A DNA stretch of 64,000 bases from Ptychodera flava (lineage: Eukaryota; Hemichordata; Enteropneusta; Ptychoderidae). The translations under genes and the position numbers were made by a program. Position 1 is the first letter of the stretch, and every line of letters starts with the position of its first letter. Positions 10,201-62,776 of this stretch are shown one piece after another. The notes under the pieces were generated by a model. The model was given only the letters and a program-made list of their open reading frames with translations. It ran no database searches and was not told the DNA's origin. The stretch covers positions 44,055,637-44,119,636 of the forward strand of contig NC_091928.1 of assembly GCF_041260155.1 (NCBI RefSeq), read 5' to 3'.

Positions 10201-13200
10201 GTGAAAGTTTGTTGTTTATTTACATCCGAGTGTACATTCTGGGTCTTTCCATTTCAATTCTCAGAAATCTGAGCGAGGGGTTCCTCAAATTCGTGGTACT
10301 CCTGAATAAGTAACAGTTGTACCAATCAAAGGATAATAGAGTCTGCTTCGGTCAATGGATCATGTTGTTCACCCAGGGTTGTGAGCTATCACCCGTGAAC
10401 TGCCATTGATACGTCTTGGCATGGCAACACATCTGGCATATTGCCATCGTTTGGAGCATGCTATGATGTGACAAATTATCTCATACATATACAGATATGA
10501 CGCTCCTATCACCATGGAGAACTTCTTGTGCAAAACAAGGCTGCAAATTCCCTTTCTTATACATGTATATGTCATCATGATAGGACCTTGGCTGTTATAA
10601 ACATGCAAATCTGACCGACTTCTGGTGTTGGGTCAAGTCCTTGTAACTGTAATCTGTTATACATGCACATTGGTGTAAATAGCCACAAATCCTGAATTTG
10701 TTCAGGGCCTTTGTACGCCAAGTGTAAGGTGTTCATTCTCAGTGGTATTAATCGCCAACATTTCAACTTTATCACTGCAAAGTTTCATTGCCAAAGTCAT
10801 AACTGTGTGAGCTATTGGTTCATGTGTCATACCGCGTTCTGTAGTTTTAATATTTCAAGTCACAGTGGAACATACACGTACATACATGAGTATAATATAT
10901 AACTTGCAGCTAATGAACACTAAGGTTAAGATAACACTTCGAACAAAAATGTCATTTGAAAGTGCAAGACTTTCACTCTTAGTTTCTGTATAGAGTAGTC
11001 CGTTAAAGAATCAGTGGACATTAGAGAGAACTTGCACCGTAGTAGTCCTAAATGGTTGACCTGGTTCAGCTTTGTGAAACAATTGAAATCCACAACTTCA
11101 AGTTCAAGGGCAAACCTCAATGAATGATCACCTTAGACCATGAAAGGATGCTTGACTGAGTCAGGCTTAAATTCTCAGGCAGACTTGTCCCAAGTCAGAA
11201 ATTGAAAATAAAACTACAATTTTGCTCAGATCAAGTCAGTGGAAATCATTACACACACTTGTCTCGCTCAAACATGCAGTATGCACCAAGTGCAGTGTAC
11301 TGTACACTGCACTTTTTGCATACTCTTATGTTTGAGCAAGACAAGTCTTGTGACAGTGTGCTACATGGGAGTCGGTCTCGTCAAACGGTCCAATCTTGTA
11401 AAATATGAGATGCTCACATGTGAATTCAGTTAAGAAATACATGCTGTACCAGGGAGATGGAAATATTATGCTCTACTACTTTTTAGGTACCTGTGATAAG
11501 CACCCAAAAATTGAAAGACTTCACCTTTTGCACAAACTCTCCTCAAGAAAACTTCGAATTTTTCTTTCCAAATGAAAAATGAAAAATCGGGGTCTCCTTG
11601 AAAAATTCGGCACAAGAGGCAAAAAGTTACTTGTATCTACCAACATTTGAAATTCAATGTGGCCACCATACCTTTATGACAAATTTCAAATGAACATAAT
11701 AGACGTAAAAATTTAGGATTATACATGCATCTGTCAATTTTACAACCTTATTTCAATAAAACTATAGACAGCATTATGTGTTCCCCTACAAAAATTGGTC
11801 TCGGCAGTAAAACAGGTAGTATAAATGTGTCAGCTGGGACCAGGGCCAACCCAAACATGTCCAACATTGTCTGTACTTAAAATTATCACCTTGAAGTGTT
11901 TTCATGTGCCTTAAAGTCTCCTTGGACTAGATAAAACTTGCCTGATACTTGCCCTCTCATAATGTGTCAATATTGAATTTTTCCAGGAGATAGGACTACA
12001 ATGTACATGCATATTCAATCACAGCAGACTGTGTTGGTGTGAATTTTACCACTTTACAAACTCGGTACTTGATGTACATGTACTGTACATGTAAGCTTTG
12101 CACACACTTTCACCAGTGTGTAGATATATAGTCCCACCTGTATGGTATTGTATTGTCTTTACATGCAGGGACCAAACTTCACAATGCGCCATTCAAGATC
12201 ACACTTGCATTAACCCCTTGACTACATCATTGCCACTGTTATAAGTGTTAAACGATTTAACAAACATATCGTGAACACATACAACTATACATGTAGGGGA
12301 CCTGGACAGAATTTTTTGCGCGCAAGAAATATGAAAGTAATTCCATTGTGGTGCAGAAAAGTTCTGACATTCTACATAGAATCAGATGTATAGTACATGT
12401 ACACAAAATATTGTCATTAGAGTTGCAGCAAACATTTTGAAGCAATAAGCTGGTTTACTAGTGTTCCAAATCGGACAAAAGCTCTAAAACATTCATCTTT
12501 CCTACATGTAGTTGTAAAACATTGGTACGTATCCCCCTTCCATCCCCTGTACATCCCATCATGTGTATATTGTATGGCCTAACTTTGCCTTGCAAAGCAA
12601 CACACAGTACAGTGACAGAAACATCAGGATTTGCAGTGAGAAAGATCGACGTGTGCTTTAACGTTACAGGATGCATGCAATATCCATGTATCCACAGTGA
12701 ACAAAAGCAGTACATTACATTAAGGCCCAATAACCAAGTGCTCTATCCTACTATTCCTAGTGTCTGTAGTACATGCATTTGTTATTGCTGAGATGACTTG
12801 CATACCACATAAAATTTTTGTGAACTGGTTAAAAACTGTGATATCATATTAACTTGTACAGCACTGCTTATGCTGTATGTCATCCAATATACATATACTA
12901 GTGTAAGTTGTAAGAATTTACGTTTCCCCAGGATTTTCTGGTAAAGGGGTGACTAATTTGCATAACAATAAATGTAATTGTTATGGTAATGCTTTTTTTG
13001 TTTACCCAAAATGAAAGAGTGGTGGCCATCACTCTATAATTGCTCTATGGAGAACACTAAGAAAGATACGTGCATAATCTCCAACCTCATTACATGAATT
13101 TACTCGCTAAAGTTTGCTCTAATATCATTTCACAGCCATTAGATGTCCGACATGCAAACAGGAGGTCAGAAACCCAGCCAGTCTCATAGACAACTACTTC

Positions 13201-16200
13201 ATGTTGGACGAGATCAGCATCAGTGGCGAGAACACGACGACCAGTACTACAGAATCTGAGACAAAGTGTACCAGCTGTGACGACAACGCCACGGTCACGT
13301 CGTACTGCGACGACTGCTCGGAGTGGCTCTGCGATGCTTGTGTGCAAGCCCATCAAAGAGTGCGAGTCACAAAGGACCACATAATCCAGCCGAAGGAGTC
13401 GGCGGAGGCGGCGCAGAAAGGAACGTCAATGAGTCCGGGAAGTTTTCGCGAGAGGCCTTTAATGTGCCCCTTACACAAACAGGAACAGTTGAAGTTGTAC
13501 TGTGAAACGTGTGATAAACTGACATGCAGGGACTGCCAACTACTAGGACACAAAGAGCACAAGTAAGTAGTAATACATATAAAGTGTGTATGAAAACATC
13601 TTTTTGAATATTTTAAGACCCCTGAAATCATACACGTAGTTACTATAAAAATGATTTTTATGGACTTGTACATTATATTTGTACAACTTGCCCAGTGGGT
13701 AAAAATATACATGGTTTTATACCAACTTTGCTTTTTACTGACTTCGCAAATGGAAAAGTGATACTGCCTGGCAGAATTAGGGTTGAGCTACTGTATAAGG
13801 CTGAAAATATAAAATTTTCTCATCAGCTTTTTAAACATCCAATACACTTGCACTGTTATCATCTGATTTCACTAGATATTACAATAGACTTCTGTAGTCA
13901 ATAAAATGCAATGCTTGCTGTGACCCCAAATTAATCTAGAATTATTGCTACAAGTTATGTTGGCTTCCAAGCAAATACATGCAATGTACGTACATGTAAA
14001 TGCATACACACCTGTGGTGGCCAATGACCTGAAGGCCATTTTCAGAGTGAAATTGTTTGTACTGTGTAGGTTTCATATGATAGCATGTAATTTGAAATCA
14101 GAAAGTTTCTTTGTGTATCCTATGGTACACATTGTACATGTAGATGTAAAACAGGGTCAACCTGAGGGCATTACCCTCCCAATAGAAAAGGAACCTAGAA
14201 AAATGTATCGTATTTCCTTGTTTTATGTAGAATATTTAGTCCTTGAACAACTGTTTCATTGCTACAACCCATACTGTATATTGTTCTAAGTTCAGTATAT
14301 CAGTGTTTTTTGTCAGGGACAGCACCCCGTAATATTTCCTGGGTTCCTTAAGAATATCAATTCTCATTTTGGAGGACAACAGACATGGAAATGGGGACCA
14401 AACACCATTAATTATCTTACAATGTGCCAAATCCTAGCAAAAAACCGTGCATTTGTTGAACAAAGATTGTTTGTAAAAGTTTAATTTGGTTTCTTAACCC
14501 ATTGACCCTGTTTGTTTGAATCGCACCAGGACACTTAAAGTTTCTTGTTCGTGCTTTGCAAGCCTGAAGTGAAAGAGAGTGTATTTTCGCATGAGTGAAA
14601 ATTAGTGGGTATATACATGTACTGTAGTTTTGATATATAAAAGAAGGCCGGGTATGGGAGGGGTGTGTTTCCCAGGCAGCCTCCTGTTGCCAGCCATAGT
14701 ATGTACATGTACATACCCTTCCTTTACCCCTATCCCTGTAATTCCCTGTATATGTCAGTTACTAGTGAAATCAGTGTCCAATCTGTGTTCGCTAATCTTC
14801 ATTTTTGCCTGAAAGTTGCCATTACTATAATGATGCAAAATATAATGGAATCACCATATATCCAAGATTAAGTATGACCAGGAAGTTATCACTGAAAAAA
14901 ACAAACTAAGTCTGTTCTGTTTTGCATGAATGACCTGTACATGTACAAGTTGCTTACATTATCATGCAAAGGGACTGGGAATCTTATTTGTAACAATCAA
15001 AGATCACATGTCAGCACGTGATATCAGATCTATCACTCAGATCAAAATAAGCTGTGTGAGCACTGTCTGCAGGGACACAGGATATATAAGGGTGCACTTG
15101 TTTGGGCTGGTGGCACTGTAAGATATCATTATTACATGTATGTAATGCAAGTGTACTTCCCTAAAACGTATCATGGCTTTACCTGGATTTAGGTGCCAAA
15201 CAAATTGTAAATATCAATTTGTATGTTGATATGAAGTTTTAACCATGCTTTCTTCATTTTGCCTTTCAGATATCAGTTTGTGAATGAGGCTGCGGCAAGG
15301 CAAAAGGGGACTATGACAGCCTTCCTCCAGAAACTGGAGGAGAAAAAACAGTTCATTGCCAATGCTCACAAGAGAATCCAAGAAAAACAAAAACAAATAA
15401 ATGAACTTGAAAACAAGACAAGTCAGGATATACGATTATTTATGTTGACTCTGATTAATGAAGTAAACAGGAGGGCGAAACGGTTACTGGCCGACCTCAA
15501 GGAGACGTGTGCTATTAAAAAGAAACGCTTGGAAGTGCAGGCACAGGAGGTGCAGCAACTAGGGAAACTGCTTGATCATTGTATGAACTTCACCACGAAC
15601 ACTGTCCTGAAAGGAAGCAATGCTGCATTGCTGTACAGCAAGAAAACCATTCTACAGCAGCTTGTGAATGTACTTCGCATCCCGTGCAACAAGACGCCGA
15701 TCTTCGGAATGGACATCAAGTTCCTCTTTGACATGAACAACGCCACCAAGCAGATTTCTAAGTTTGGGGTGTTGTTGATCAGCGACGCGTCGGGCCAAGG
15801 CAGCAACCCGAGCAACGTGGTTCAGCAGCTGAATCGAGCCATCCAGCAGGCACCCCGACAGGCTTTCTTGGGTGGTGGTGGGGGCGCTCATCCAAACCAA
15901 TCACCACCGCAGTACGGACAGATTCTCTATCAGCAGCAGCAGCAGCGACTCAAGCAGCAGCAACAGCAGCAGCAGCATCAACAGCAACAGCGACAACATC
16001 AGTGGCAGCAATTGCAACAGCGAAAGATCACCCTACAGCAGCTTGCCAATCAGAGGCAACAACAGCATCAGCCTGGCATGCCCCCTGCAGCACAGATCCC
16101 CACCTCTATGTCAGCAACTATGAACAGCCCGCCAACAGCTCCTGTCAACCAGTTTCAACGTCAACTGATTCAGCAGGGTGAAGTAAAACAAGAACCGCCT

Positions 16201-19200
16201 AGGCTATCACACATGCCTATGAACCCAAAGCCGCAAGTGCAACCTAGGTTGATTGCCCCGAAACCGTCACCAACACAAGCGACTGTGTTACACGGAAATC
16301 CGGTCATTTCTAACGTTGTATCGTTTGGCAACCTGACGCGTCTGTCGCCAAGCACCCTACGCCAGCTGAGTCCCTCAGTCCGCGACCTTCAAGAGGCTGT
16401 TTTTACGCATATGCCGCCTGCCCAGGGGAACAACCAAGTGAGCAGTGCCAGTGGGGGCGACAAACAACTGCCTACAAGTCCCCCTACTATGCCTGTGACT
16501 ATTCCATTCAACCAAGGACAGCAACAGGAGCACGTCAGCTCTGCCAAAACTGAAATCAAAAGTGAAGCGGAATCGCCACGGGAGAAACCGTCGTGTAGCT
16601 TTGAGAAAGCTGCACGAAAGGGGACCCCTCCGCTGAGTACAGGCTCTGGTCAAGTTGACACAACAGGGCTTCATTTAGGCAGCTCTCGGCCATCAAGCAA
16701 TGCCTCCTCTTGGTGAGTCCCACTCAATTGAATATTACTGTAAGCCCTTATCCTGCAGGGTCTGTTACATAGGTATTGAGCTAAAACGTGCGTGTATTTT
16801 CACCTACTTCCTCAGGTGTTATCCGAGGGTTACTCACCAAAAGTCATATTTACAATATCTTAAATTGAGTTGTTACTCATGCCTTACTGAGAAAATTGGT
16901 GAAATGGAATATGTCTTCTTGAAGTTATCTTATCTATATGATAGAGGACCTCACAATACATTTTATACTTTGATGGTGTGTGTTTTGCAGTGATGGTAGG
17001 AGCAGTGTCACTTCCGAGCCCAGCACAAGCAATGTACGTGTCAAACAGGAACCTATGAGTGCGGATGAGCCAAGTGCCTGTGGTGTTGTACCGCTGGATG
17101 AGCCAAGTGCCTGTGGTGTTGTACCGCTGGATTTCACTGTCAAGAGAAGTGACAGCCATATAGAAGACGATGATCCCTTGTCAATGTTTCCAGTAAGTCG
17201 ACTTTGATGTGTAAATTTTCATGGTATCCTGCAGAGGGCTTTCTAACACAGCAGTACTGAGCAGGGTTTTCCACAAGGGGATTATGAGGGGCGGGCAGCT
17301 ACTCAGTTTTTGGAACAATCTTTTCATACATTAAGAACTGTACTAAAGAATATAATTTCACAACAAAGTAGTATTCAAATTATGCATTCTTATGTAAATT
17401 AGCTATACATCTGTTGTTCAAAACTGTTTGGAACACAGAACACTGCTGCACAATCAAAAGTAAGACATTAGCACTGAGGCATGGGGAAGGGAACGCAAGC
17501 CATTTCACCAATTTCCATATTTCCGCATGATTTATCATACCTGAGAAACTCCCCTTGGCTGTATGTGTTTTAGTATTTGTTATGGACAACAGGATTGGCT
17601 TTCCACACGGTAATTATCCCAAGAGAAAACATCTGAAGCCTAACTTCTTTGCCAGCCTAATTGTTAACCACAGGCCCAACAAAATGGCCACAAAAAGAGC
17701 ACAGTGAAGGAAAACCATGGTGGCAAAATGCTGAACCAGTTTTCCATATTCATTCATGTACTGTCCTTTTGAAGGCTAAAACCAGTGACAGTGTAGATGC
17801 TTGCTGTAACATGTACATTCTCAAAAGACCATATCATCACACCCCTCTCCCACCAGTTTCCATTGAACATACAGGTCCAACCACAACCTTGAGGGGCTGA
17901 ACATTTCAGTGTCTGTGATTCCCAATTATTGACTGTCATCATAGTCAGTCATCACATTGTACATGTACAACACTTGTCTGTCTACATTCACTGTAAGCCA
18001 AGTGAAGGATTTTAGTCAAGGATAAGTGAAGCTATAAACGCCACCAGGGTTTCTGATTTAGTTTCTAAGGTTCCACAACGATATCAAAATAATCAAATTA
18101 TGAGACAGCAGCAATTTCACTTTAAGATAATGTAGAACTTGTGGCATATCTGAACTCCATGAAGCCCTTTTAGGATTTCTAGAAAGTTCTGTTGATAACT
18201 GAACAGCACTTCATGTGCATGTCATGTGCAAATCGTCTTGAGTCAAGGAGAAGTCTCTAGATTCAGTGACATGTCAATTTCATGTAGGGGCCTCACTGGT
18301 TACTCCTTCCTGACTGTTTTCTTGTGTTCCCGAAATATTTGCAAATAAAAGCACTGTGAGTGGAGAAACCAACCCAAACATAAGACTAGTTCAGAGAAAT
18401 TCTCTGAACACAGTTCAATATCATATACCGGTGCAGCACTCAGTGCTACTCGCTTGTACACCTGTATCTGTATGCAGTACATGTAAACACTGATTTCTTT
18501 TCATTTAAGGAACTTCTTGACATTGCAAATCCTGCTACCACACAACCAGAAAAGGGCGGCAAAGGTAGTAACCTTGGCAACGAGGGCAACGAAGTGCCGG
18601 AATCTCCTGAACCAACAGCAGGGCCCTCAGAAGAGAGGGCAAATGATGATGAGAGCGAGGATTACTGTGCGTGCTGTCACAATGGCGGTGATCTTCTGTG
18701 CTGCGAGAAATGTCCCAAAGTCTTCCATCTACAGTGTCACATTCCATCACTCACTGCCACGCCAAAGTAAGCCCTCTCTGTGCACACTTGTGGCTCTTTT
18801 GACTCAGGTCTAAAAAGTATGCCGTTGTCCAAAAAATAAGTTACATATATGTGTGTTGCAGGGAGTAAAGGCACCAGTTAATATATTTCAATATCAAAAA
18901 AATACACAAGGCCATTCATTTTATATGGACAAATCTTTCTTGTCATTGAATCTTAATCGAAAAGGATACTTTTATCCTACATACAAACATACCTGTGAAT
19001 GTCTACCAATATATGTGTGTACAGTAAAATTTGTCAGCGTGCCACACTTCCTTAAACAATAGTCTGAAGAATGGAAAATATGTCCAGAATGCAGAGGAGA
19101 ATTGAAACAGGAGAGTTTGGCAATGTTGTCCAAAGAATGAGTGTTGTTTGAATTAGGTCATTGGTATAGAGTCATTTTGAAGGACAGGCTGACAACATTT

Positions 19201-44562: not shown

Positions 44563-44644
44563 TAGACTCAAAGATCCGTCGTTCGAGGGCGCTCTTTAGG
44601 CTCCCTTCTCTTAAGCGCCCTCGAGCGACGGATCTTTCAGTCTA
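44563..44644. mobile_element. Short palindromic element, copy 1 of the TAGACTGAAAGATCCGTCG family
   Basis: Near-perfect palindrome with ends TAGACT(C)AAAGATCCGTCG and CGACGGATCTTTCAGTCTA. Flanks TACACCAGG and TACATCAAG are a possible degraded 9-bp duplication. The second copy is at 53188-53288. Confidence 0.75.
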
Positions 44645-51096: not shown

Positions 51097-51229
51097 CTAC
51101 GAGGGTCTACCCGCCCTCAACGACACTGATCTGGAGAGGATAGCTTGTCTAGCGGCGTCTCTGAATTTTGATCTGACCGACTCACTCAGCAAGGTTGATA
51201 GTAAAGCGTCGCTTGTGTTCCTCTTCTCA
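51097..51229 (-). CDS. Prohormone exon 9: peptide copy 7 and stop
   Basis: Starts in matching phase after TTTCATACGTAG. EKR is followed by NTSDALLSTLLSESVRSK, then FRDAARQAILSRSVS and a short tail ending RPS and TAG. ILSR matches the ILAR of copy 6. A further donor-like GTATGC lies after the stop. A possible poly(A) signal (AATAAA on the minus strand) occurs near 50733-50743, inside the right arm of the long-inverted-repeat element. Confidence 0.8.
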
Positions 51230-54200
51230 CTACGTATGAAATATGCATAAATTTATGAGCAATGGCAGAAACGATAAATTATCATTGGCTGTTCCTCGTT
51301 TCGCGGGAAAATGTGTCAATGAGATACACAAGCGTGACTGCAACAAAAGTCTACAGAGCAGTATCACTTTTCAATTTTCTGATTTCTGCAAATGAAAATG
51401 GCGGCAATTTAAAAAACAGCGGTAAACTCAGAGAACTTTATAACTGAAGCTTTTCCCCATTATTTATTAGCAATTTTTTCTATTTTTCCCTTGGGTTGTA
51501 TTTTGTTCGCCTACCGCTACACGACAGCACCACGATCTATGCCTGAATCTGCAGGGATTTTTTGTTGTTTGTTTCCCGCTCATGTCAAAACTTGTTCACG
51601 TGTCTTGCCGGAAGAGAAATCGGAGGCCGAGGACAACAAACGACGAAATTGTGCCTCTCGAGACCGAGTTTTTTCGAATTTATTGAAACCTTCTTCTTGT
51701 AAAATTTAAAAACGGGAAAAATTTAGAATATTCTCGTTCAAAGTCAAGAAGAAAAATCATGGGTGACAAAATTTGGAATGGAGAAACAATATACCTTAAA
51801 TTTACAGATATTTGAAATTCAAAATGGCGTCTTTACCCCGTGAAATCTCTATGGGTGAAATAACGCTATCGGGTTTTACAAAAACAAGACGGTGGAAACA
51901 TTATTTACTCCACAAGGTGCACATGTGTTTACAAAAACACTGGATAGGTAAAGAATTGTAAAACTCCAAGAACCTAAGGTTCATTTTACCTTCAGATAAG
52001 GCCACATGAAATACGTGAGTTTCCGGTAAAACCTGGTTTACCCTAGAAAAACCCGCCAACCCTTTCACACATTTTTTTGCAATTTCTGAACAATATTGAG
52101 TAAATTCTCTATATTTTACCGTATTTCATGTGTCGCAGCCAACAAAAATAAAATAATACAATTTTCCCCGACCTACCAACCACAATTTTCGGAGGAATGT
52201 TACCGGAAACAAACGGTTTTCTATATTTGGCCTGAACTCAGTTTAATTTACTGTGAACACCAAGTTATCCAATATAACAACAAGACTCATTGGAAACAGT
52301 TGCACACTATATAAGGCCAAAAAATAGATTTGTTCTGGTCAGCGCACGCGTCATTTCAAGAGCTGCGCATCATGTCTTTTTTCTCGTAAAAAAATCTGGG
52401 TGAGTCAGACTTTCGTATGGTGGCTGGCCTAAATTCAAAGTTTTTATGATGCATGTCCTAAAATGCTGGAAAAAAACCGGAAGTATTTTGAAGCCAGTTA
52501 TAAAAGACAATAACTGTTGCGTCACTGGTGCCAAACCAGCATTGTTGCGAATTAAAAAGGGGGGGGGGGGAAGAAAAGAATGTCGCGCCATCGCATCACT
52601 TTTGCAGAATGGCAAGGACCAGAAACAGATCTTCTTTTTGGCGTAAATTAAAACAGAAGAAATCACAAATAGAACCATGGAGACATTCTTTGGTGGATTG
52701 GTAAAAAGAGGATAAAATCGATGCTAACAGGCATATTAATATTTATAAGAAAACCGTTTACACGTTATCTAAGGAAGTGATGAATTGTCACATTTGTTGA
52801 CGTCGATACGCTTTTATGAACGTCGAGAGTGATAAATTTCTCATGGAAGGCCGAGTTACTGTTACTTTTGACAAAATATGTCGTATTTTATCTCAATTAT
52901 TTTGATCTACTCCCCAAAGCATGTCTAAATACCGAGTGTTTGGATCATAAACGGGTACACTGTATATGATGTTGGTAATGACATATTTATATTTGTTTAG
53001 AACTTAAATCAAGTCCGGACCCGAATTCAGTCAATCGTCAACAATAACACTACACGCCTTACACATGCACGCATTATTGACGAGCCGACTATGTATTTGA
53101 AAATGTTGTAATGGGTGTAGACTAAGAAACCGTGGTTACTGCACGGAATAAACACTGATAAAAGATTGCCAAAAGTTACAATCACTGTAGACTGAAAGAT
53201 CCGTCGCTCGAGGGCGCTCTCTACGCTCACCTCTTGTGAGAGGAGGGGAGCGTAGAGAGCGTCCCCGAGCGACGGATCTTTCAGTCTACAATCACTGGGC
53301 CTTTTAAGGTTTGACGGAAATTCAAACAGCGGAGAATCTAAAAACCGATTTTCTTGAAGAATCATGACTTTGCGTGAGTGGAACAATGACTTGCCACAAT
53401 GCATTTACTTACATTTCATCGAGGTCGTCATCGCTTCTCTTCCCTTGGCGCTGACGAGCAAGAATTGCTTCCTTAAGAGCTGAGGCGTTGTTGTTGAAAA
53501 ACTGTTTCCTTAGTTGAGAATTCATGAAGGCATCTGCGGTGACGCGCTTGCTTCTGTAACAGTATAAAGAATTGAATAATTTCAAATTGTTTGGAAGCTG
53601 TTACTGGAAATAAAATATTTGTTCGATTGAGATAGGCGGATCCGACAAAATGAATATGATTAGCTATCTATCTGATTGTTTGATACAGAGATCTCTGTTC
53701 TCCCACAAATGTTTGTAAAAAGGATGTCGTATGTTTCATCGACATGACTGTTCACTATCATTCCGTCCCTCATGTGACTTGTCACGTGTTAGCAAGGTGA
53801 ACAGTTGTACTTTGCTTGTACAGAATCTCACTACCATGGCAAACATGTACTTTGAAATTTATTAAGTTAGATGTTTGGTTGATACATACATTGTATTTAC
53901 AATTTATTGGTGTGATAGTATTTTTAAGGGCCAATATATGGGATGACATAGGCAAGGGTAATCGATGGATCACAGATATGAATATGACAACAGACAGACT
54001 TGATGAAATATGATTTTCTCTCTTCAATGATATGACCTGGGTGCATGTCCAAAAGTCTGGTTTTTTTGTCAGCTAAAAAACTGTCGTCAGGCTGAATGCT
54101 CTGCTAGGCTAAATGTAATTTGAATCTCTGGTTGGTGACTCAGTCACACGTGACTTGGTACTAATTTGCATAATCACGCAGTTTGTTGAATACTTACTGT

Positions 54201-57200
54201 GGGACTCTAACGGATAGGTCGCCATATTGTTTCCTCAGGTTCTGCAATATTTTCAAGAAAGCCTGTCCCCGTAGATTAGACGCTCCTTGTGACATTATTT
54301 GTGAGTTCAGGGCATCCGCCATTGTTCTCTTCTCCCTGCCGCAAACGAAAAGTTTTGATAATAGCAGAAAGTCGTGCAGGCGATCAAGCAGATCATGTTT
54401 AACAAAATATTCCAAATCGCCAGAGCACAAGTATGGAAAAGACTTAGAGGAGGAATTCCCCAAGTCATTATTTTCACGTTTTTCTACATGTGGTTAAATT
54501 CTTTTTGAAGCCCTAGAAAGGGGTCTACAAACATTTTTTATGAGTTCACATATTCTAAATAAACAGCATATGAAGATTATATGACGTCATTGGCAATATT
54601 CAGCATGCTTTTGACAACATGTAGTCACCGTGAGTCAAACTTGACGCGTTGATAGAACAATGAAAGCAAAATTCAAACGACAGACAGACGTGGTGAACAC
54701 AGGATTGTTCGAAGACATTCGTAATAAGTATATGTAAATAGGAGATACAAGAAGAAAGGTAGAAATACGTGTGATGAGTGTTCCTTTTGCAACATACATG
54801 CACATCTTCAAATGCGCATTGCCACGTGGACGGATAGTGTAGGTCATAAGGTACCACAATGATATGCAAAGATGCATGGTTGTATAGAAATGTGTCGAAG
54901 ATTTGAACTGTGATATGCAAATTAATGTCTGTGCAAGGAGACAAGTGTTAACCTTATTTGTGTTGCAAAGTACTGCGCAGCCGTGTAAATGAAGTGACAA
55001 TTCATTCATCAACCAGTGTTTGCAAGTGACATACATCATAGAATCTTATCTGCGTGGTACAGCTCGAAGAATATACATAGGATGGCGAGAGATAGAGGAT
55101 AGTTCATTAAGAGACACACGAAAATGTGACGGCCTGGTGAGATGTAGGCGAAGAACTGCAAATGTTAGACGTTACAATACAACTTGAAATAAGTGAAGCG
55201 GATCACGTCACTAGGGTCAGATTGGCTTGGAGGGATTTCGTCTGCAACTTTACTGTAATTTGTGATCAACTTTTTTAGACATTTGTAAGCACAGGTAAAG
55301 GGAGCAAGAATGTTTATGCATTGAGGTGGATAATTTGAAATGTTATCACTTTGTACATTGATACCGGTAGTTAAAACGTTGATCCTTTGACACAGTACGT
55401 TGCATTTCAGAGGTTTACGTATTTTCAATCTCCAAGTTTCCTTTCTGACTGATATTTGACGGTATCCTCTTCAAGAAAGACAAAGAAAAGTGCAATGTTG
55501 AGTGTGTGCAATGATAGTCTTCGCCTGTTCGGCCATATTGTGCAAGGTATACCCATGATTCCTTGCGGTAGTTCGACGGATGGTCATATGGTAAGTATGG
55601 GTCTTGAACGTCACCAGTTATGCTGGAAATACTATTTTGCCGTGCCACGCTTTATCGTGCTCGTATCTGTGGAAGTTCCTTATCCATTTTGCGCTCTTTA
55701 CGCACTTTCCGCAAAGAATGATGGGTATTGACTGGCCACAGCCTATCAACTATGTGCACTTTGTGGAAGAGACATGTCATAGGTCAACAGGAAGTCACTA
55801 AAACATGAAAAGATTCCGCGCTTTTCATCTCACCGGGAAATAGGTTTTCGGTTGTCACAGCATAATGCACTATTGGATGTGCTGTTGCATCATGGCAACT
55901 GACAGCTTTGCATTCAAGACCACTGCAGCGAATGATTGCGCGTGAAATATCAGCCGCACTCCGGTGGGAGTCCTCAGGAGGCTAGGTACACCGAACAAAC
56001 ACATGCGCAACAGCGTTAGGTCTATTATGTGCGTGTGTGAAACATTTTGATCTTTGAACGCTAAGATCGAAAAGCAAAGCAGATGTATGCAACAAGTGGC
56101 ATCAAACGACTGATATCAACGAGCAGCTGTGCATGTTTGAGGTCAGGGTCTTCTTTCATGCCAAATAATTTATTCCAGCGTGCCACGTGACAGCCTTTCA
56201 GTGTTGGGTGCAAACGTTAACTAATATATATGAACCTATGACATTTTTAATTCTAGGCAGCCGGGGATAATATTGTTGCGTTAAGACGCCTGACGTTGCT
56301 AAATGACGGAAGGAACAGTATGACGTATTTCTACAGGATAACATTAATAAATCTTGAAGCCAAATTAGTCTTTAATGTTATTTTATGTTATGAAAATTGT
56401 TTATTCTGGATCTCCGTTCTTCAAAGCATGGTAACATATTGATTTTCGATAAACTTACTGAGAAAAGTAGACAAACAGAATAAGTGATTAAATAAATATG
56501 GTCACTGAGACTGGCATATTAGAGTTTTTCCTACATGTTGATATGTGACGACTGTATGGTAGTTTTCTTTGTACAGGAAACTGATTTATCAACTAAATTT
56601 ATTTGTTTGTACACACTTACGTATGCGTTATGATTTACAATTCAGTATTCCATATGATCGCATTTGTGTACGGACTAAATTCCTTTGACAGAGAGAATTG
56701 CACTGTGTTACACCCAATCTTCGTAGGGGGGGGGGGCAGTGAAATAACAGTAAGGAGATATGCTAGTCTCCCTCCCAGAACTTCTGAAATACTGACTTTT
56801 TAAACCATGCTTTGTTGACCAGAACAACCAGACGAGTGAGTCGAACAAAGGGTAAGGAATATTTTGACCAGGTGCAAAATTTCAACTGTCGGAGGCTCGC
56901 TATATTACTTACTCTTCGGGAAAAGTTTCCTCCGTGCTATCATCTACAATGGTTCTTGTGGGCAAAGTCGCGATAACGGATTTTACAAGTTTGATAAAAC
57001 GGCTGGGGAATGAAGCAATTAAGGAGGATAACTTGTCGTTAAAAAAATAAATTTTGGAACTAATATTCATGCATTCGAAAAGCAAATTAAGAGATTTAAA
57101 TAGTCTTACATAGGTCAAATGTTCATTTTACATTATTTAAGAGTACGTTTTGCCAGTTTTCAATAGCTCTGTCACTGTCGTTAGGATAAGTTCAGTCTTA

Positions 57201-60200
57201 TTAGCTTTTGTTCTCAATTTTACAGTGTGCATGCACGCACATACAATACCCAAATGTGCGATATTAACGTAGATATTCATTTCACTCAAAATAGTAAGAG
57301 CAGAAACTTCATAGGATTTAAGTGGTATTGTTTTGATATTTGAATACCCTAATATTTTCTGTGTACTTGCAGTACTAATAGCAAGCAAGCAAGAAATATT
57401 ACATGCACGCATGCTATAGTCGATACAGTTTCAAGAAAAAGGGACTTATCTGCGCATGCGTATTACTTACGCACGAGGTTGGGTAATGTCGCCGAATCGG
57501 GCTTGTAAGTTTTTAACTATCTTTTGAAGAGCCTGCCTCCGCATCTCTACAACAATATTGTGCATTTTTGTTGACATCAAGGCCTCTGACTGAACTCGTT
57601 TAGCTCTGATGGGTGATTGGTCGACGGAGAATTGAGACGAAGAAAGTTAAGCCTTTGTCAGTTTTGAGGTGCAAGGCGACATTGGCAAAAATTCAAGAGG
57701 TTAATGTAACAACAGGAGAAGCGTTAAAATACCGGGAATGTTCAATAAAGAAAGAATTGGGTGCATTCCGCGGCAATTTTGGGTTTATTTTACAGCTTTA
57801 CACCAGCAAAGTTAACATCGCAATTTAAAGAATAGAATAAAAATTACAATGTTACAGAAATAAATATTAATAACATTTACTTTTACAAATCAAAAGTGTT
57901 TGCCACTATCAGCGGGTGTTACTAACATAATGTAGCACATAATTTTGTGAGAGAAGGTTTGGATAACGCAAATAATTTTTGAGAGAAGGGAGGCAAAGAC
58001 CCTTGAGAATACCGAGGGTCTATGATGATAGAAGCAAGGAATTATTACGTAGCGTAGAGCGTGACACCGACGGCGCTGTTTCATAAAATGTTCCATCTTG
58101 AGCAGGAGACGCTGAAATTCGAAAATTCTCTTGCATTAGAAACCATGATTCCGCTTCTCGCCTCTATCGACAAAAGCGTGATTGGACGTTCTTGAAAATT
58201 GCGCCATTTGTGTCACCTGGAATTAATAATTTAAGTTTATATAAGCTAAAGCGCATGCGCGGAGAACGCACCCATAATGCCCCCAAAGGGAAGTGACGTT
58301 TATAAGAGGATAGATGAAAGCTGGTATCGGACAAGTGCGTTGAAGGGTAGAAAGCATATGCTATATGTAAAGAAGACAGGAAAGAATGAAATAGTTAGCA
58401 CAACTGGGCGGGAAAACCTGTGTCACTTTACTTACGCCGACCCGGCAGCCTTATTGTTAAGTTGCCCCATGTTACTGAGCAACCATCGCCGAAAAATGTC
58501 GTTGCTGTTTTCTTGCTGCAAAATGGACGACATTGCCGTATCTGCTACATTGCGTTTCCTTCTGTGAAAAAGAAAGCGAAGCGTATTTGTAAAGTAAAAG
58601 TGTTCAGTAGCGAGAGATTCGTTCTTTTGAATTGACTGGTGCCATTGTTTTGTTTTGTTTTAGTATTTCTATGCTAATGCTATTTTCCCTCTTAATTAAT
58701 ACATGTAAATCTTTGACCCTTCCGTAGTATTTACCCCAGACTTGGTCTCGTCCATTATTTCCGACAGGGGTGGCTGCAATGTTGGAAAAGGCGAACAAGT
58801 CCAAAAGTTGCGTTATAATGCCACTGATGTCAAGACTCCAAAAGCAGGTGTAATACCGGATACCTAGGTACCTCGGGCAGATATTTGAGACCTAGAAACA
58901 ACAGTTTCTTTAATGTCACTTGAGGATTTAACTTTTAGAAAAGATTATCTCGAGTTCATAAACACGTTATTTGCGAGTCCGCCCACCGTCGCAATCATTT
59001 GTAGCAGTGTTGCCACAGTGTGTGTATACTACTTAATTACAGGACTCAGAGAAAGAATCAGGCAAAGGGTAATTTCACAAGAAAGCATGAAACAGAACTA
59101 CGTTTTTGTAGGACAGTATTGGTGAAAGAAAATTACAGAATGTAGACCCGATTGGACCTTCTCATGTAGAGGCAGGATTTGGATCTCCAATCTGTTGACG
59201 TCATCAGCAGCGTTGGAGAAATGAACGGATGATTTTGTGAAAACCTAATACAGTGCTCAGGGACTAGGTCAACAAAAAATTAAAAATAGCACAGACAAAG
59301 TCTTTTGTCGATTACGTACGCCTTCATTACCTGACTATAATACGACTGTTTACAGGATTAAATCTGTTTTGGCAAAAATGATATTTTTGTCGGGGCGGAA
59401 TATTTAATTTTGCCCCACGAATACGTAATACTTTTCAGCCGGCCACTCAATCTTGAGAAATGATTGTCAATTCGATGTCAACGTCCAGTTTTACTATGCT
59501 CCCCAAGAATATCGCGCCATAGCATCTATATGGTAAAATTACTTTCCATCAAGTACTGACCAACTTTCGAATGGCACATGGCCAAATGTCGAAAAAAAAA
59601 TGCCAAAACCTATTTCATATTTAGCTACGTTTTAAATGATATAAAATGTACTTATCTATGAAGCAAAACCTAAAGATGCAGTTTTAATTTTAAAATTGTC
59701 ATAGTTTTCTCCCCAGACAAAAATTACCCAAAATGAAACAACATGAGAATGGAGCCTTATTGAAAGACACACGACGGACTGAAAAAAACTATGGCTACAA
59801 TGCTTCCATATAGTCTACTAAAGAAATACGTGAACATATAAAACAGCTTTAATTCAAGTAAATAAAAGTAGACAAGCAGTTACCATGCCCAATGTTAGAT
59901 AAAAACGAAGAGTTGTTTGCACGGCGCAAACCATAAAATAGTAAATAGTGGAAGATTTAAGCAGACGAATATTCTTCACTGATAAAAATTCATCAGCATG
60001 TATCTTCACACTCAGTGCACATTAAAGTCCCACTAGCTGTAACTCTTGAATTTGTTGACATAAAAAAGGCTTTCTATTTTCTCTGGTTTCTGATAAATTC
60101 TACCAATTTAAAGGATATATTCTTTTACTACTGAAAATTTGGACATGTAAATTTAAATTTTAAGCGTTATTTGATTTCCTGCCATTTTTAAAAAACTGGT

Positions 60201-62705
60201 AATATTACAAGGAAAACCAAGGATATGATGTCCCAGTGGAAAACATTCAGTACTATGCATTACATTGGACTACTCTGTTGTGTCTGTGAAGATTCAAATG
60301 CATATATGCACGACGTACAGCGTTTTTGCTTTATTTGCATGGGGTGCCAGTTTACGTTTGGGCACACGTTTATTATTTATCTTGTTCAAAATTGCACATG
60401 CAGTTCCAGTGGGCAGTTTATTATACTTGTATAAACACCCCTAAATGAGTACTTTCACACGAACTTGTTTTAGTTTGGAAGTAAAATCACAAAAATAATG
60501 CTAAAAGATACAGCTAGTGGGGCTTTAATACACTCTATATCCCCTTTCTATATAATGTCAAAGGAGGCATTACACGCGAGATATGCCGAGATCACACGAG
60601 ATGCTTGCCTACAAAGAAGATTTGCGGTTTCAAAATCTGCCCTTAGGCTCACTGCAGCGTCCCTGGAAAACCTTCACAATCACATTTCAACAATGGTACA
60701 GGTCAAACATCTTAACTTATTAATTATCATATTCAATAATTGTATTATTGATAACTTTACCAAATATTTTCAACCGACAGGATGTAAGATGGTCAACAAC
60801 AATTCGAAAGAGAAAGTGAGGATACAGTTAATGACATTCTTGCATATATGTACCAGAGTTCTTCTGTGGGCAGCTACAGCGCATGTGTGGTGACGAAAAT
60901 CGATAACACGTGACGGTGCCGACCAATCAATGTCCAAATTAATGACCTACTCTTTGGTGCGAGGCGTTTAATGAATATTAAATGCCTATCTGCCAGCTCT
61001 ACATAGTTCGATGCTTTGACAGAACACGTCGCTGGAAATCATCGCTGTGTAGTCTTTTTTTGTTTTGTTTTGTTTTCGTAGATCACTGAGATTCATGACT
61101 TACGGAGTGTCTTCGGTCTGCTGCGAATTCTTCCGTTCCTGTTGTTCGATTAAGTTTTGTATAATTCTTCTGAGTGCTTCTCTCTTAGCTTTGCTTCTTT
61201 CGTATTTTAACAGTGACGCCATGTACGTGTCGGCAACGTTTTTCTTACGTCTGTCAACACAACAGCCATGATCGCCGAAAAACTCACTGAATTAATATTT
61301 AAGTCGCCAGAGGGGGAGTTTAAATCACGATGAAAGCGTTAATACTTTCGTGCATTAGAAGCAAAGTTTGATGATAAACCAAGACGGTACAGATTGCGGA
61401 AGATTTGCCATTCGTTGTACATATTACACTAATTTTAAGAACATGATCTTTTGACATGATACTTCTTTAAAATAATCAATTGTTTTAAACGGTTAAAGTT
61501 GCTTAAACTTGAGAATACAGTTAATCATTATTGAACGAGGGAAGTGTCTACGTTTGTCTAACTGTGGGGACTAACCCAGATAGTGACAAATCATTCGCAA
61601 ACTGCTCCCCTGCCTTGGTAACTACACTACTTACACTACGCCGCCATGCTGTTGCAAACGCCGTAGAAACCAGTTATGCAGAGCCATGCTGCCCATTCTT
61701 TCGTGCTGCTTTCTAAGCAGTGAGGACATCGATGCGTCAGCGACATTTCCCCGCTTCATTCTGTTCGCATGACCATATTTAGAACAATTTAAATGTCACG
61801 TGCCCAAGAGCATGCGGACCGCAAATCAGCCGAGCCCAATGGACAGCCACACTGATGAACAGCTTGAAATTACGTCACACAAAACAGAATGCATGAGCAT
61901 GCGCAGTACTATATCATCGTTTGGGGTCTATGGCCATATATATACCTACGAATTCGAAGGAAAGATTTCATCAACACATAAAGCACATAGACCTACATAC
62001 ATGCAAACTATTCTGACATGCAATATTTCTGTTAGGGTATCTGTAACCGGATTTTACGGGAAGTGTTTGGCCTTGTGAAATTTCTCGACTAGAATCGTAC
62101 TTGTAAGCACATATGCACTTCGTAGAGCTTGTTATACGTAAATTAATAGAAAGTTAGCGTTCTGTAATTGTGAAGGAATCGTAAAGGATTACAGCATAAA
62201 TACGCGTGTGCGCACAGCAGTGAAATGTTCTGAAAATAAAATTTATTGTACGTTGTGTATAAGGTTGTCCAACATCAGTGTTAAACGCAACAGGTATAAT
62301 AGATGAAGCACAACACGTGTCCTTCCGCACTTCCTGTTCGGAGAGAAAAGCTCATGAAGATGCTTGTGATAGAAAGACGGCGTGAATAACGGACTTGTTT
62401 CCTGGAATCACAGAAATGTATCATTTTGTTCAGTCTGTCGTCATCGATTAAGACATTTCAGGTCTTATATTTTTATGCAACGTGTAACATTATTTCCTGG
62501 AAGAAAATTTGACGCATAGATCAAGTCTTAGCTGTCAAGCAAGTAATGTAGTGCAGACTAAAGCGTCCAACAAAGTACAAAGAAACCTTGGAGAAATCGA
62601 CATATGGACGTGAATAAGAATTTCTACTTACATAGGCGTTCCATAACTCTGTTTAACGGCCACCAATACTAGTACTAAGACTACCACCACGATAGATTTG
62701 TTCAT
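51097..62705 (-). CDS. Multi-peptide prohormone, class B1 receptor ligand-like (secretin/glucagon/PTH-type), nine coding exons
   Basis: Exons in order on the minus strand: 62705-62632, 61760-61635, 61250-61104, 58561-58436, 57605-57471, 57002-56913, 54335-54198, 53553-53413, 51229-51097. Joined, they give 369 codons and TAG. All eight introns are phase 2 and all donors are GTAAGT. A hydrophobic signal peptide is followed by seven paralogous peptides, each preceded by KR, RKR or RKK and each starting within a few residues with ADA, ADT, SDA or SEA, then [M/L/N]-x-[S/T]. This fits the N-terminal pattern of glucagon/VIP/GHRH peptides (x-[SA]-[DE]-[AG]-x-F-[TS]) with Met/Leu for Phe6. PTH (V-S-E-x-x-L) fits one residue out of register. 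Helical C-terminal halves follow. Predicted to be secreted, cleaved by prohormone convertases and to act on class B1 receptors. The family name is inference; the gene structure is seen directly. Confidence 0.85.
51230..53412 (-). other. Prohormone intron 8
   Basis: 2.2 kb holding the palindromic element and a poly-G run near 52559. I looked for another peptide exon with a KR-x-x-AD start and found none. Confidence 0.6.
53188..53288. mobile_element. 101-bp palindromic element, copy 2, with 9-bp target duplication
   Basis: Almost perfect palindrome from TAGACTGAAAGATCC to GGATCTTTCAGTCTA, flanked on both sides by CAATCACTG. The related copy is at 44563-44644. It lies in the last intron of the prohormone gene. 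A 9-bp duplication suggests a Mutator-like mobilising enzyme. Confidence 0.85.
53413..53553 (-). CDS. Prohormone exon 8: peptide copy 6, with C-terminal amidation signal
   Basis: 141-nt phase 2-2 exon. SKR is followed by a 33-residue peptide starting VTADAFMNSQLRKQFF and ending AILARQRQ, then G-K-R. Gly before a dibasic site predicts an amidated C-terminus. A short acidic spacer (SDDDLDE) follows. Similarity to GHRH is visible by eye (ADA, NS, RK, I..RQ). Acceptor CTGTTACAG, donor AT|GTAAGT. Confidence 0.84.
54198..54335 (-). CDS. Prohormone exon 7: peptide copy 5
   Basis: 138-nt phase 2-2 exon. EKR is followed by TMADALNSQIMSQGAS, then FLKILQNLRKQYGD. Helix ILQNL is shared with copy 2 (IIQNL) and copy 4 (IVKNL). 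Acceptor TTGCGGCAG, donor CA|GTAAGT. Confidence 0.83.
54336..56912 (-). other. Prohormone intron 6 with a possible relic copy
   Basis: 2.6 kb. At about 55262-55170 (minus) an acceptor ATTACAG is followed in the right phase by KVADEIPPSQSDPSD, but no phase-2 GTAAGT donor follows. Otherwise short chance frames. Confidence 0.5.
56913..57002 (-). CDS. Prohormone exon 6: atypical exon without the dibasic/ADA start
   Basis: 90-nt phase 2-2 exon after TTCATTCCCCAG. It encodes RFIKLVKSVIATLPTRT and the acidic DDSTEETFPE, then donor GA|GTAAGT. It keeps the reading frame but lacks a cleavage site at its start. An alternative acceptor at 57060 (exon from 57059, also in phase) would add FFNDKLSSLIAS, which loosely resembles the N-terminal motif of the other copies. 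It may be a degenerate copy or spacer. Confidence 0.6.
57471..57605 (-). CDS. Prohormone exon 5: peptide copy 4
   Basis: 135-nt phase 2-2 exon. AKR is followed by VQSEALMSTKMHN, then a helix RRQALQKIVKNLQARFGD. SEA replaces ADA, making this the copy whose N-terminus is closest to PTH (V-S-E). Acceptor CACCCATCAG, donor GC|GTAAGT. Confidence 0.82.
58436..58561 (-). CDS. Prohormone exon 4: peptide copy 3
   Basis: 126-nt phase 2-2 exon. RKR is followed by NVADTAMSSILQQENS, then FRRWLLSNMG. Its N-terminus is nearly identical to copies 1 and 2. Acceptor TTTTTCACAG, donor GC|GTAAGT. Confidence 0.84.
58562..61103 (-). other. Prohormone intron 3 with a family F element and a possible relic copy
   Basis: 2.5 kb. 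Contains the F element at 60026-60524 and, at about 60676-60595 (minus), a stretch reading LRADFETANLLCRQASR after TTTTCCAG in the right phase. It has the AD/LL spacing of the peptides but no KR and no good donor. Confidence 0.5.
60026..60524. mobile_element. Family F inverted-repeat element, long copy
   Basis: TTAA at 60022-60025 and 60525-60528. Ends AGTCCCACTAGCTGTAAC and GATACAGCTAGTGGGGCT. It has about 270 bp more internal sequence than the copy at 46040-46267. Confidence 0.75.
61104..61250 (-). CDS. Prohormone exon 3: peptide copy 2
   Basis: 147-nt phase 2-2 exon. RKK is followed by NVADTYMASLLKYERSK, then a basic helix (REALRRIIQNL) and an acidic spacer SQQTEDT. Internal KR/RR pairs might be cut or protected by the helix. 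Acceptor TGTTGACAG, donor CC|GTAAGT. Confidence 0.83.
61635..61760 (-). CDS. Prohormone exon 2: peptide copy 1
   Basis: 126-nt phase 2-2 exon. After MKR it reads GNVADASMSSLLRKQ, then a helix with NWFLRRLQQ. The Trp-x-Leu-Arg-Arg-Leu-Gln stretch recalls the receptor-binding helix of PTH. The next processing site (RKK) is at the start of the following exon. Acceptor GCGAACAG, donor GT|GTAAGT. Confidence 0.82.
61761..62631 (-). other. Prohormone intron 1
   Basis: 0.87 kb between the signal-peptide exon and the first peptide exon. A chance 92-codon frame on the plus strand (61800-62078) is not supported. Confidence 0.6.
62632..62705 (-). CDS. Prohormone exon 1: signal peptide
   Basis: Encodes MNKSIVVVVLVLVLVAVKQS and then YGTP, a classic signal peptide with a Val/Leu core. 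Cleavage is likely after SYG. Donor AT|GTAAGT, phase 2. The ATG lies about 72 bases downstream of a minus-strand TATA box. A CTGCAG acceptor-like site at 62722 leaves an alternative 5' UTR exon possible. Confidence 0.85.
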
Positions 62706-62776
62706 GCTTATGTTACAAGACCTGCAGCGTAAAAGATAATGAAAAAACTTGATTTCAGTGACCCTTCTCTGACCTC

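Follow-up and report, generated by a model that had tools for sequence, protein, structure and literature searches.

An unnamed, splice-variable gene of acorn worms encodes up to seven class B1-like peptides

In vertebrates, the proglucagon and VIP/PACAP/GHRH precursors contain several related helical peptides of about 30-45 residues with basic cleavage sites and [SA]-[DE] near the N-terminus, and the N-terminus of the glucagon/secretin family follows the motif H/Y-[SA]-[DEQ]-[GA]-x-F. The vertebrate PTH, PTHrP, and TIP39 genes specify one such peptide each. The PACAP/GCG gene of amphioxus (Branchiostoma) consists of four exons and encodes three peptides that are reported to activate the amphioxus receptor (PMC9049855, PMC7251081); its transcript a carries exon 2 (peptide a), and transcript bc carries exon 3 (peptides b and c) (PMC9049855). 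Here, we describe a gene on the minus strand of a 64,000-nucleotide stretch of the genome of the acorn worm Ptychodera flava (contig NC_091928.1, positions 44,055,637 to 44,119,636; hereafter the window). The gene is real, conserved, and unnamed, and it is a splice-variable precursor gene for up to seven class B1-like peptides, i.e. peptides resembling the hormones that act on class B1 receptors.

Nine exons were rebuilt on the minus strand of the window, from position 62705 down to 51097, and they join in a frame of 369 codons with one stop, as proposed in an earlier note made from the sequence alone. All introns start with gtaagt, end with ag, and are in phase 2 (the codon is split after the second base), so that the seven internal exons are each divisible by three in length. 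Seven exons (2, 3, 4, 5, 7, 8, and 9) contain a basic site at their start and one peptide each. The basic sites that follow the split codon read, in exon order, MKR-G, RKK, RKR, AKR, EKR, SKR, and EKR, and the seven peptides share the core [AS]-[DE]-[AT]-x-[MLN]-[SNA], which agrees with the related motif described in the same note. The N-terminus encoded by exon 1 is hydrophobic, ends in QSYG, and was read by eye as a signal peptide. In the protein models described below, this exon has an acceptor upstream of the ATG, reading ...SCNIS-MNKS, and its start is probably near 62721. The gene has the layout of a prohormone gene, namely a signal-like start, related peptides, and basic cleavage sites in a single frame, and the same layout is found in its relatives from Glandiceps and Saccoglossus.

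The relationship among the peptide exons was assessed against the background of the window. A profile made from 13 peptides, including the seven from this gene, was compared with 2222 six-frame open reading frames (ORFs) of the window; these seven frames scored 52-64 bits, the next ORF scored 12.7 bits, and reversed ORFs did not exceed 8.2 bits. When each exon was kept outside its own profile, all seven were still detected, with E values between 1.2e-12 and 5.9e-5 (1.6e-5 for exon 2, 6e-9 for exon 3, and 5.9e-5 for exon 4). A profile made only from six Glandiceps and Saccoglossus peptides ranked five of the seven exons first (E values of 4e-11 to 2.5e-5); exon 2 (E value of 0.0049) ranked immediately below an unrelated ORF of the plus strand (0.0047), and this profile did not find exon 4 (E value of 0.54). 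Exon 6 was excluded from all profiles. The first Glandiceps peptide, which has no motif, was kept outside the alignments, the tree, and the profiles and was included in the pairwise similarity comparisons.

Database searches returned seven protein clusters, all from hemichordates: three from P. flava, two from Glandiceps talaboti, and two from Saccoglossus kowalevskii, which represent three families of Enteropneusta. The spliced protein matches the P. flava protein models P0001, P0002, and P0003, which are isoforms X2, X6, and X8 of one gene. The relatives are LOC144448420 in G. talaboti and LOC100373259 in S. kowalevskii, with two isoforms each, and the sole name given in all three species is 'uncharacterized protein'. 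The reading of the locus as a multi-peptide precursor with one peptide per exon thereby gained support from the P. flava models and from two further acorn-worm families. No echinoderm protein was among the matches; this absence is weak evidence because the search detects only relatives that share short exact words (five residues).

The signal exon is almost unchanged across the three worms, and several peptides have a clear counterpart in another species. Exon 7 and Saccoglossus peptide 2 gave a score of 134 (z of 27.5), and exon 8 scored 87 with Glandiceps peptide 3 and 84 with Saccoglossus peptide 3, all without the basic site. Exon 9 and Glandiceps peptide 4 scored 117 (z of about 20) with the basic site and 102 without it. 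For exon 5 and Glandiceps peptide 2, the score was 72 (z of about 13) with the basic site and 62 (z of 10.6) without it, and the score of exon 5 with its sister exon 7 (59) was barely lower than the latter. Since exons 7, 8, and 9, and less clearly exon 5, are closer to a peptide of another worm than to the other peptides of the same worm, these peptide types predate the split of the compared worms. The closest outside peptide of exon 2 is Saccoglossus peptide 1 (score of 53), and exons 3 and 4 most resemble each other and exon 2; judged from these similarities, exons 2-4 look like the products of local multiplication. In a tree of the peptides, the sequences are not sorted by worm (the P. flava rows need 5 changes, and 440 of 500 shuffles were as low), and no branch reaches the mark for strong support. 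The rows of exon 8, Glandiceps peptide 3, and Saccoglossus peptide 3 adjoin around the drawn root and do not form one supported group. Gly-Lys-Arg at the end of a peptide is the usual signal for C-terminal amidation, and these three peptides each have a Gly before a basic pair, which is Lys-Arg in exon 8. In the first Glandiceps peptide segment (P0004, residues 30-72), the N-terminal motif is absent and the tail is similar to exon 3 (z of 4-5 in one comparison and 5.0 in another); this segment may be a decayed hormone.

The P. flava models, which were taken as automatic annotation, differ by whole peptide exons. In an exact-string check, exons 1, 4, 7, 8, and 9 were contained letter for letter in all three, accompanied by exons 2 and 3 in P0001, exon 2 in P0002, and exon 3 in P0003, and exons 5 and 6 were found in none of the three retrieved models. 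The numbers of peptide exons are therefore six, five, and five, respectively, six being the largest mix. P0001 and P0003 each represent four clustered sequences, and the isoform numbers imply isoforms beyond X2, X6, and X8. Whole peptide exons also distinguish the models in the other two species: Glandiceps isoform X3 lacks the exon-5-type peptide present in X2, and Saccoglossus isoform X3 lacks the first peptide found in X1. With all introns in phase 2, the frame stays intact whichever peptide exon is skipped. As each model has five or six peptide exons and exon 5 is in none of them, cassette splicing fits them better than the delivery of seven hormones from one transcript, which the earlier note had suggested and which we do not retain. 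The joining of the exons in a transcript, also assumed there, is reflected in the models for exons 1, 4, 7, 8, and 9 and for exons 2 and/or 3, but not for exons 5 and 6. Splicing appears to draw from the seven peptide exons and to set which peptides are made.

Exon 6 shows splice signals, a good pyrimidine tract, and an open frame. It has no motif, no homologue, and no model, and it has no clear similarity to any of the peptides (best z of 2.8). A search for the same combination of features (a gtaagt donor, symmetric phase 2, an open frame, and a pyrimidine tract) found two such donors on the plus strand, taken over the whole window, and none on the minus strand outside the gene. Exon 6 may be a real spacer exon or a chance occurrence, a chance one at this place being possible but unexpected. 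The proposal that chance accounts for both exon 5 and exon 6 was rejected, as exon 5 has a counterpart in Glandiceps; for exon 6, no support was found and it was left out of the mechanism proposed below. The coordinates of all exons are given in Table 1.

Table 1. Exons of the precursor gene in the window (all on the minus strand)
Feature	Position	Strand	Content and remarks
Exon 1, coding part	62632..62705	-	Signal-like MNKSIVVVVLVLVLVAVKQSYG + TPI; phase 2 donor
Exon 2	61635..61760	-	MKR + peptide GNVADASMSSLLRKQHERMGSMALHNWFLRRLQQHGGVV; cassette, absent from P0003
Exon 3	61104..61250	-	RKK + peptide NVADTYMASLLKYERSKAKREALRRIIQNLIEQQ...; cassette, absent from P0002
Exon 4	58436..58561	-	RKR + peptide NVADTAMSSILQQENSNDIFRRWLLSNMGQLNN...; present in all three models
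Exon 5	57471..57605	-	AKR + peptide VQSEALMSTKMHNIVVEMRRQALQKIVKNLQARFGD...; in none of the three P. flava models; Glandiceps counterpart
Proposed exon 6	56913..57002	-	Spacer without basic site or motif; unsupported
Exon 7	54198..54335	-	EKR + peptide TMADALNSQIMSQGASNLRGQAFLKILQNLRKQYGD...; Saccoglossus peptide 2 counterpart
Exon 8	53413..53553	-	SKR + peptide VTADAFMNSQLRKQFFNNNASALKEAILARQRQ-G-KR; predicted C-terminal amide
Exon 9	51097..51229	-	EKR + peptide NTSDALLSTLLSESVRSKFRDAARQAILSRSVSLRAGRPS, then stop; Glandiceps peptide 4 counterpart

The intron between exons 8 and 9 contains a foldback element (positions 53171-53305) with 63-base arms that are 86% complementary and a 9-base loop. 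Its 18-base core is found again in inverted orientation at 44564-44643, and the element looks like a small mobile foldback element.

The peptides were compared with known hormone families using sets of hormone and control sequences, of which those of GHRH, GIP, and PTH were compared with PDB chains and are identical to them. Of the 12 controls, two (labelled apoA1frag and myelin) are helical strings that are approximate or invented. The PTH set comprises three sequences and the PDF set five protostome peptides, and both sets were too small, or their sequences too short, for the comparison to be even-handed. In the profile comparison with the secretin and PTH families, which the earlier note had proposed as a check, the hemichordate profile scored 17.6 over 35 columns, in N-terminal register, against nine human hormones of the glucagon/secretin family; column shuffles gave 6.6 (standard deviation of 1.5), and none of 100 was as high. 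The scores were 15.3 without GHRH and 14.3 without GHRH and GIP, and the two parts of the family taken alone reached 14.1 (glucagon/GLP/GIP) and 13.6 (VIP-PACAP-GHRH-secretin). The scores of the other families were 8.1 for PTH, 9.4 for CRH, 6.6 for PDF, 5.0 for CT, and 6.3 for NPY, with 18, 9, 16, 51, and 45 of 100 shuffles as high, respectively.

The glucagon/secretin family was ranked first by two further tests. In pairwise comparisons of 14 hemichordate peptides with five hormone families and the 12 controls, the mean z was 0.79 for glucagon/secretin, 0.61 for PTH, 0.33 for the controls, 0.30 for PDF (best pairs of 3.6 and 3.5), 0.24 for CT, and 0.06 for CRH. Apart from one pair discussed below, the highest values were those of exon 4 against GIP (5.8) and of exon 8 against GHRH (5.0, in an alignment of 30 residues without gaps), compared with at most 3.9 for a control; these local scores are too noisy to name a family. 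When the comparison was anchored at the N-terminus, the mean z was 1.18 for glucagon/secretin (n=9), eight of the nine members being best at one common one-residue shift, and -0.25 for the controls (n=12); PTH, PDF, CT, and CRH gave 0.59, 0.57, 0.54, and -0.17, respectively. These results suggest that kinship with the glucagon/secretin family is likely but not proven. The class B1 resemblance proposed in the earlier note is strongest for this family; PTH and PDF, which were named there as well, remain near the background in tests of low power.

Several observations weigh against this assignment. Searches of Pfam and PDB gave matches at chance level or none. With the seven peptides and two precursors, no Pfam row up to an E value of 10 belonged to a hormone family. 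No PDB hormone chain was found with a ten-peptide profile (P. flava and Glandiceps peptides only) or with the peptides of exons 2 and 8, the sole two of the seven that were searched singly. The match to the glucagon/secretin profile is itself modest (E value of 0.0012, probability of 20%). Reversed hormones scored 10.6 and reversed hemichordate peptides 11.1, which indicates that over one third of the margin above the shuffles is due to helix-like composition. When only the first 14 hormone columns were used, the score was 7.0, with two of 25 shuffles as high, and Glandiceps alone or Saccoglossus alone reached just 12.2. The top single pair, exon 9 with fly DH44 (z of 7.0), involves a hormone of a different class B1 family. 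By eye, [SA]-[DE]-[AT] is present in all seven peptides, and, in that register, H/Y1 and F6 of the glucagon/secretin N-terminus are present in none; the missing residues speak against strict membership in that family. Amphipathicity is non-significant for most peptides (two of seven at p<0.07; exon 8 is the worst, at 0.69). The AlphaFold model of the 300-residue isoform (four sequences) shows a helix over each peptide segment, and its mean pLDDT is 38.6, so that nothing was concluded from it. Six of the seven peptides (those of exons 2-5, 7, and 8; the exon 9 peptide has none) contain internal basic pairs, which could shorten them. Finally, a published search of a P. flava transcriptome and hemichordate genomes with PACAP as bait gave no result, and no PACAP homologue is reported there in hemichordates or echinoderms (PMC7251081).

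Taking both sides together, we consider it moderately probable that the gene encodes a splice-variable acorn-worm prohormone of the PTH/glucagon/PACAP kind whose peptides would be ligands of class B1 receptors. The receptor setting is suggested by published work: insect iPTH receptors have been placed together with the vertebrate PTH, GCG, and PACAP receptors (PMC8557429), iPTH is the ligand of Tribolium receptors in this branch, with QSGamide as the presumed lophotrochozoan counterpart (PMC7224569, PMC8557429), and receptors for PTH, among other ligands, have been reported in ambulacraria, where searches in brittle stars gave no such precursor (PMC5627052). In the proposed mechanism, a row of exons in the same phase comes after a single exon for the signal peptide, and each exon of the row would supply one peptide of about 30-45 residues behind its own basic site. 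Peptide exons could be skipped without loss of the frame, and splicing would thus set the peptide mix of each transcript. The precursor would enter the secretory route, where prohormone convertases are expected to cut at the KR, RKR, and RKK sites, and the exon 8 peptide, at least, would be amidated. The peptides, which are predicted to be helical, would then activate class B1 receptors, most likely the ambulacrarian receptors of the PTH/glucagon/PACAP type, whose ligands are called missing in the literature.

The principal alternative is that the gene is a hemichordate PDF-type precursor with an increased number of peptides (up to seven), which would act on PDF-type receptors; we regard this as unlikely. 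The peptide motif can be aligned with the PDF motif (S-E-x-x-N-S-x-L), most clearly in exon 7, where the PDF core N-S-E-x-x-N-S-x-L is partially recognizable by eye. In echinoderms, PDF-type precursors contain two related peptides that are 29-35 residues long and in some cases possibly amidated at the C-terminus (PMC4772807, PMC6586643); the sea cucumber precursor is alternatively spliced, the skipped exon being a spacer (PMC6586643), and putative PDF receptors have been reported in hemichordates (PMC3961327). The five PDF peptides, however, remained at control level both pairwise and by profile and were weak in the N-terminally anchored test, with the limit that they are all protostome sequences, and the searches, which depend on shared five-residue words, returned no echinoderm protein. 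This alternative retains a sizeable minor share of the probability because the published PDF-type precursor of S. kowalevskii (GI:187067819) may be LOC100373259. No printed sequence of that precursor or of the echinoderm PDF peptides was found in the passages of the papers examined for it. The CRH-type precursors of S. kowalevskii have been published under another accession (PMC4772807). Neither LOC100373259 nor any of six peptide fragments is mentioned in the open-access library searched, supplements and subscription papers lying outside the search. The gene had been presented as looking undescribed; this holds only for the open-access library and the searches made here, and the PDF-type precursor of S. 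kowalevskii may be the same gene.

A calcitonin-type precursor was also considered. Peptides of this type have two N-terminal cysteines and, in many taxa, an amidated C-terminal Pro, and those of a sea cucumber are reported to activate receptors of the PDF type (PMC12638048). Saccoglossus peptide 2 ends in Pro before Gly-Lys-Arg, and the two N-terminal cysteines are absent, there being no cysteine among the 369 residues.

It is rather improbable that the gene represents a neuropeptide family restricted to hemichordates, with another receptor and only a chance likeness to class B1 hormones. All seven protein clusters are indeed from hemichordates, the peptides have no hormone match in Pfam or PDB, and part of the match is due to helix-like composition, as the score of the reversed hormones indicates. 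The in-register score of the forward profile nevertheless exceeds the reversed and shuffled ones, and the length of the peptides, the N-terminal acidic motif, and the presence of one peptide per exon fit class B1 ligands. That the locus is no prohormone at all and consists of repeated exons of some other secreted helical protein is very improbable: basic pairs do occur inside most of the peptides and could be incidental, but each of the seven repeats directly follows a basic site, whose position in the exon is always the same; the Glandiceps and Saccoglossus repeats likewise have a basic site directly before them, and a Gly is found before a basic pair in each of the three species.

One other probable gene was noted in the window. 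Probable exons at 13126-18770 on the plus strand encode B-box zinc fingers, a Q-rich frame of 493 residues without a Pfam match, and a PHD finger just under the Pfam cut-off (23.5 versus 24 bits); we take this to be a TRIM24/33-like gene.

Beyond the prohormone reading favoured above, it is quite possible, and proposed here tentatively, that the gene provides the ligands still missing for the PTH/glucagon/PACAP receptor branch of ambulacraria: a set of up to seven distinct class B1 hormones in a mix chosen by splicing, with a layout that predates the split of the three acorn-worm families. As the peptides combine a PTH-like spacing behind the cleavage site with a glucagon-like profile, they may stand near the common ancestor of both families. 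If the gene fills this ligand gap, receptor tests on a few peptides could join glucagon, PTH, PACAP, and insect iPTH across the bilaterians. It would also provide a simple natural example of how a single gene can vary its hormone mix by splicing exons that share one phase.

Like the proglucagon and VIP/PACAP/GHRH precursors, to which the profile match is best, the acorn-worm gene combines several related peptides of about 30-45 residues with basic sites and [SA]-[DE]. Unlike them, its peptides have no His/Tyr at aligned position 1 and no Phe at aligned position 6, and the acidic residue comes fourth behind the basic site (fifth in exon 2) instead of third. Exons 3 and 4, and exon 2 with one additional residue, show the x-V-[SA]-[DE] spacing of PTH/PTHrP/TIP39 behind their basic sites, and there are short pairwise likenesses of exon 2 to PTH and of exon 4 to TIP39, whereas the PTH profile score remains at background level. 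The remaining systems were compared by description only. With iPTH and QSGamide the peptides share S-D near the N-terminus, where these are conserved, but the Tribolium iPTH precursor holds one amidated peptide. The PDF-type precursors of echinoderms contain two peptides as against up to seven here. Amphioxus PACAP/GCG is likewise a gene of an invertebrate deuterostome that encodes several related class B1 peptides and has spliced forms differing in peptide content; the acorn-worm gene differs from it in having seven peptide exons with one peptide each.

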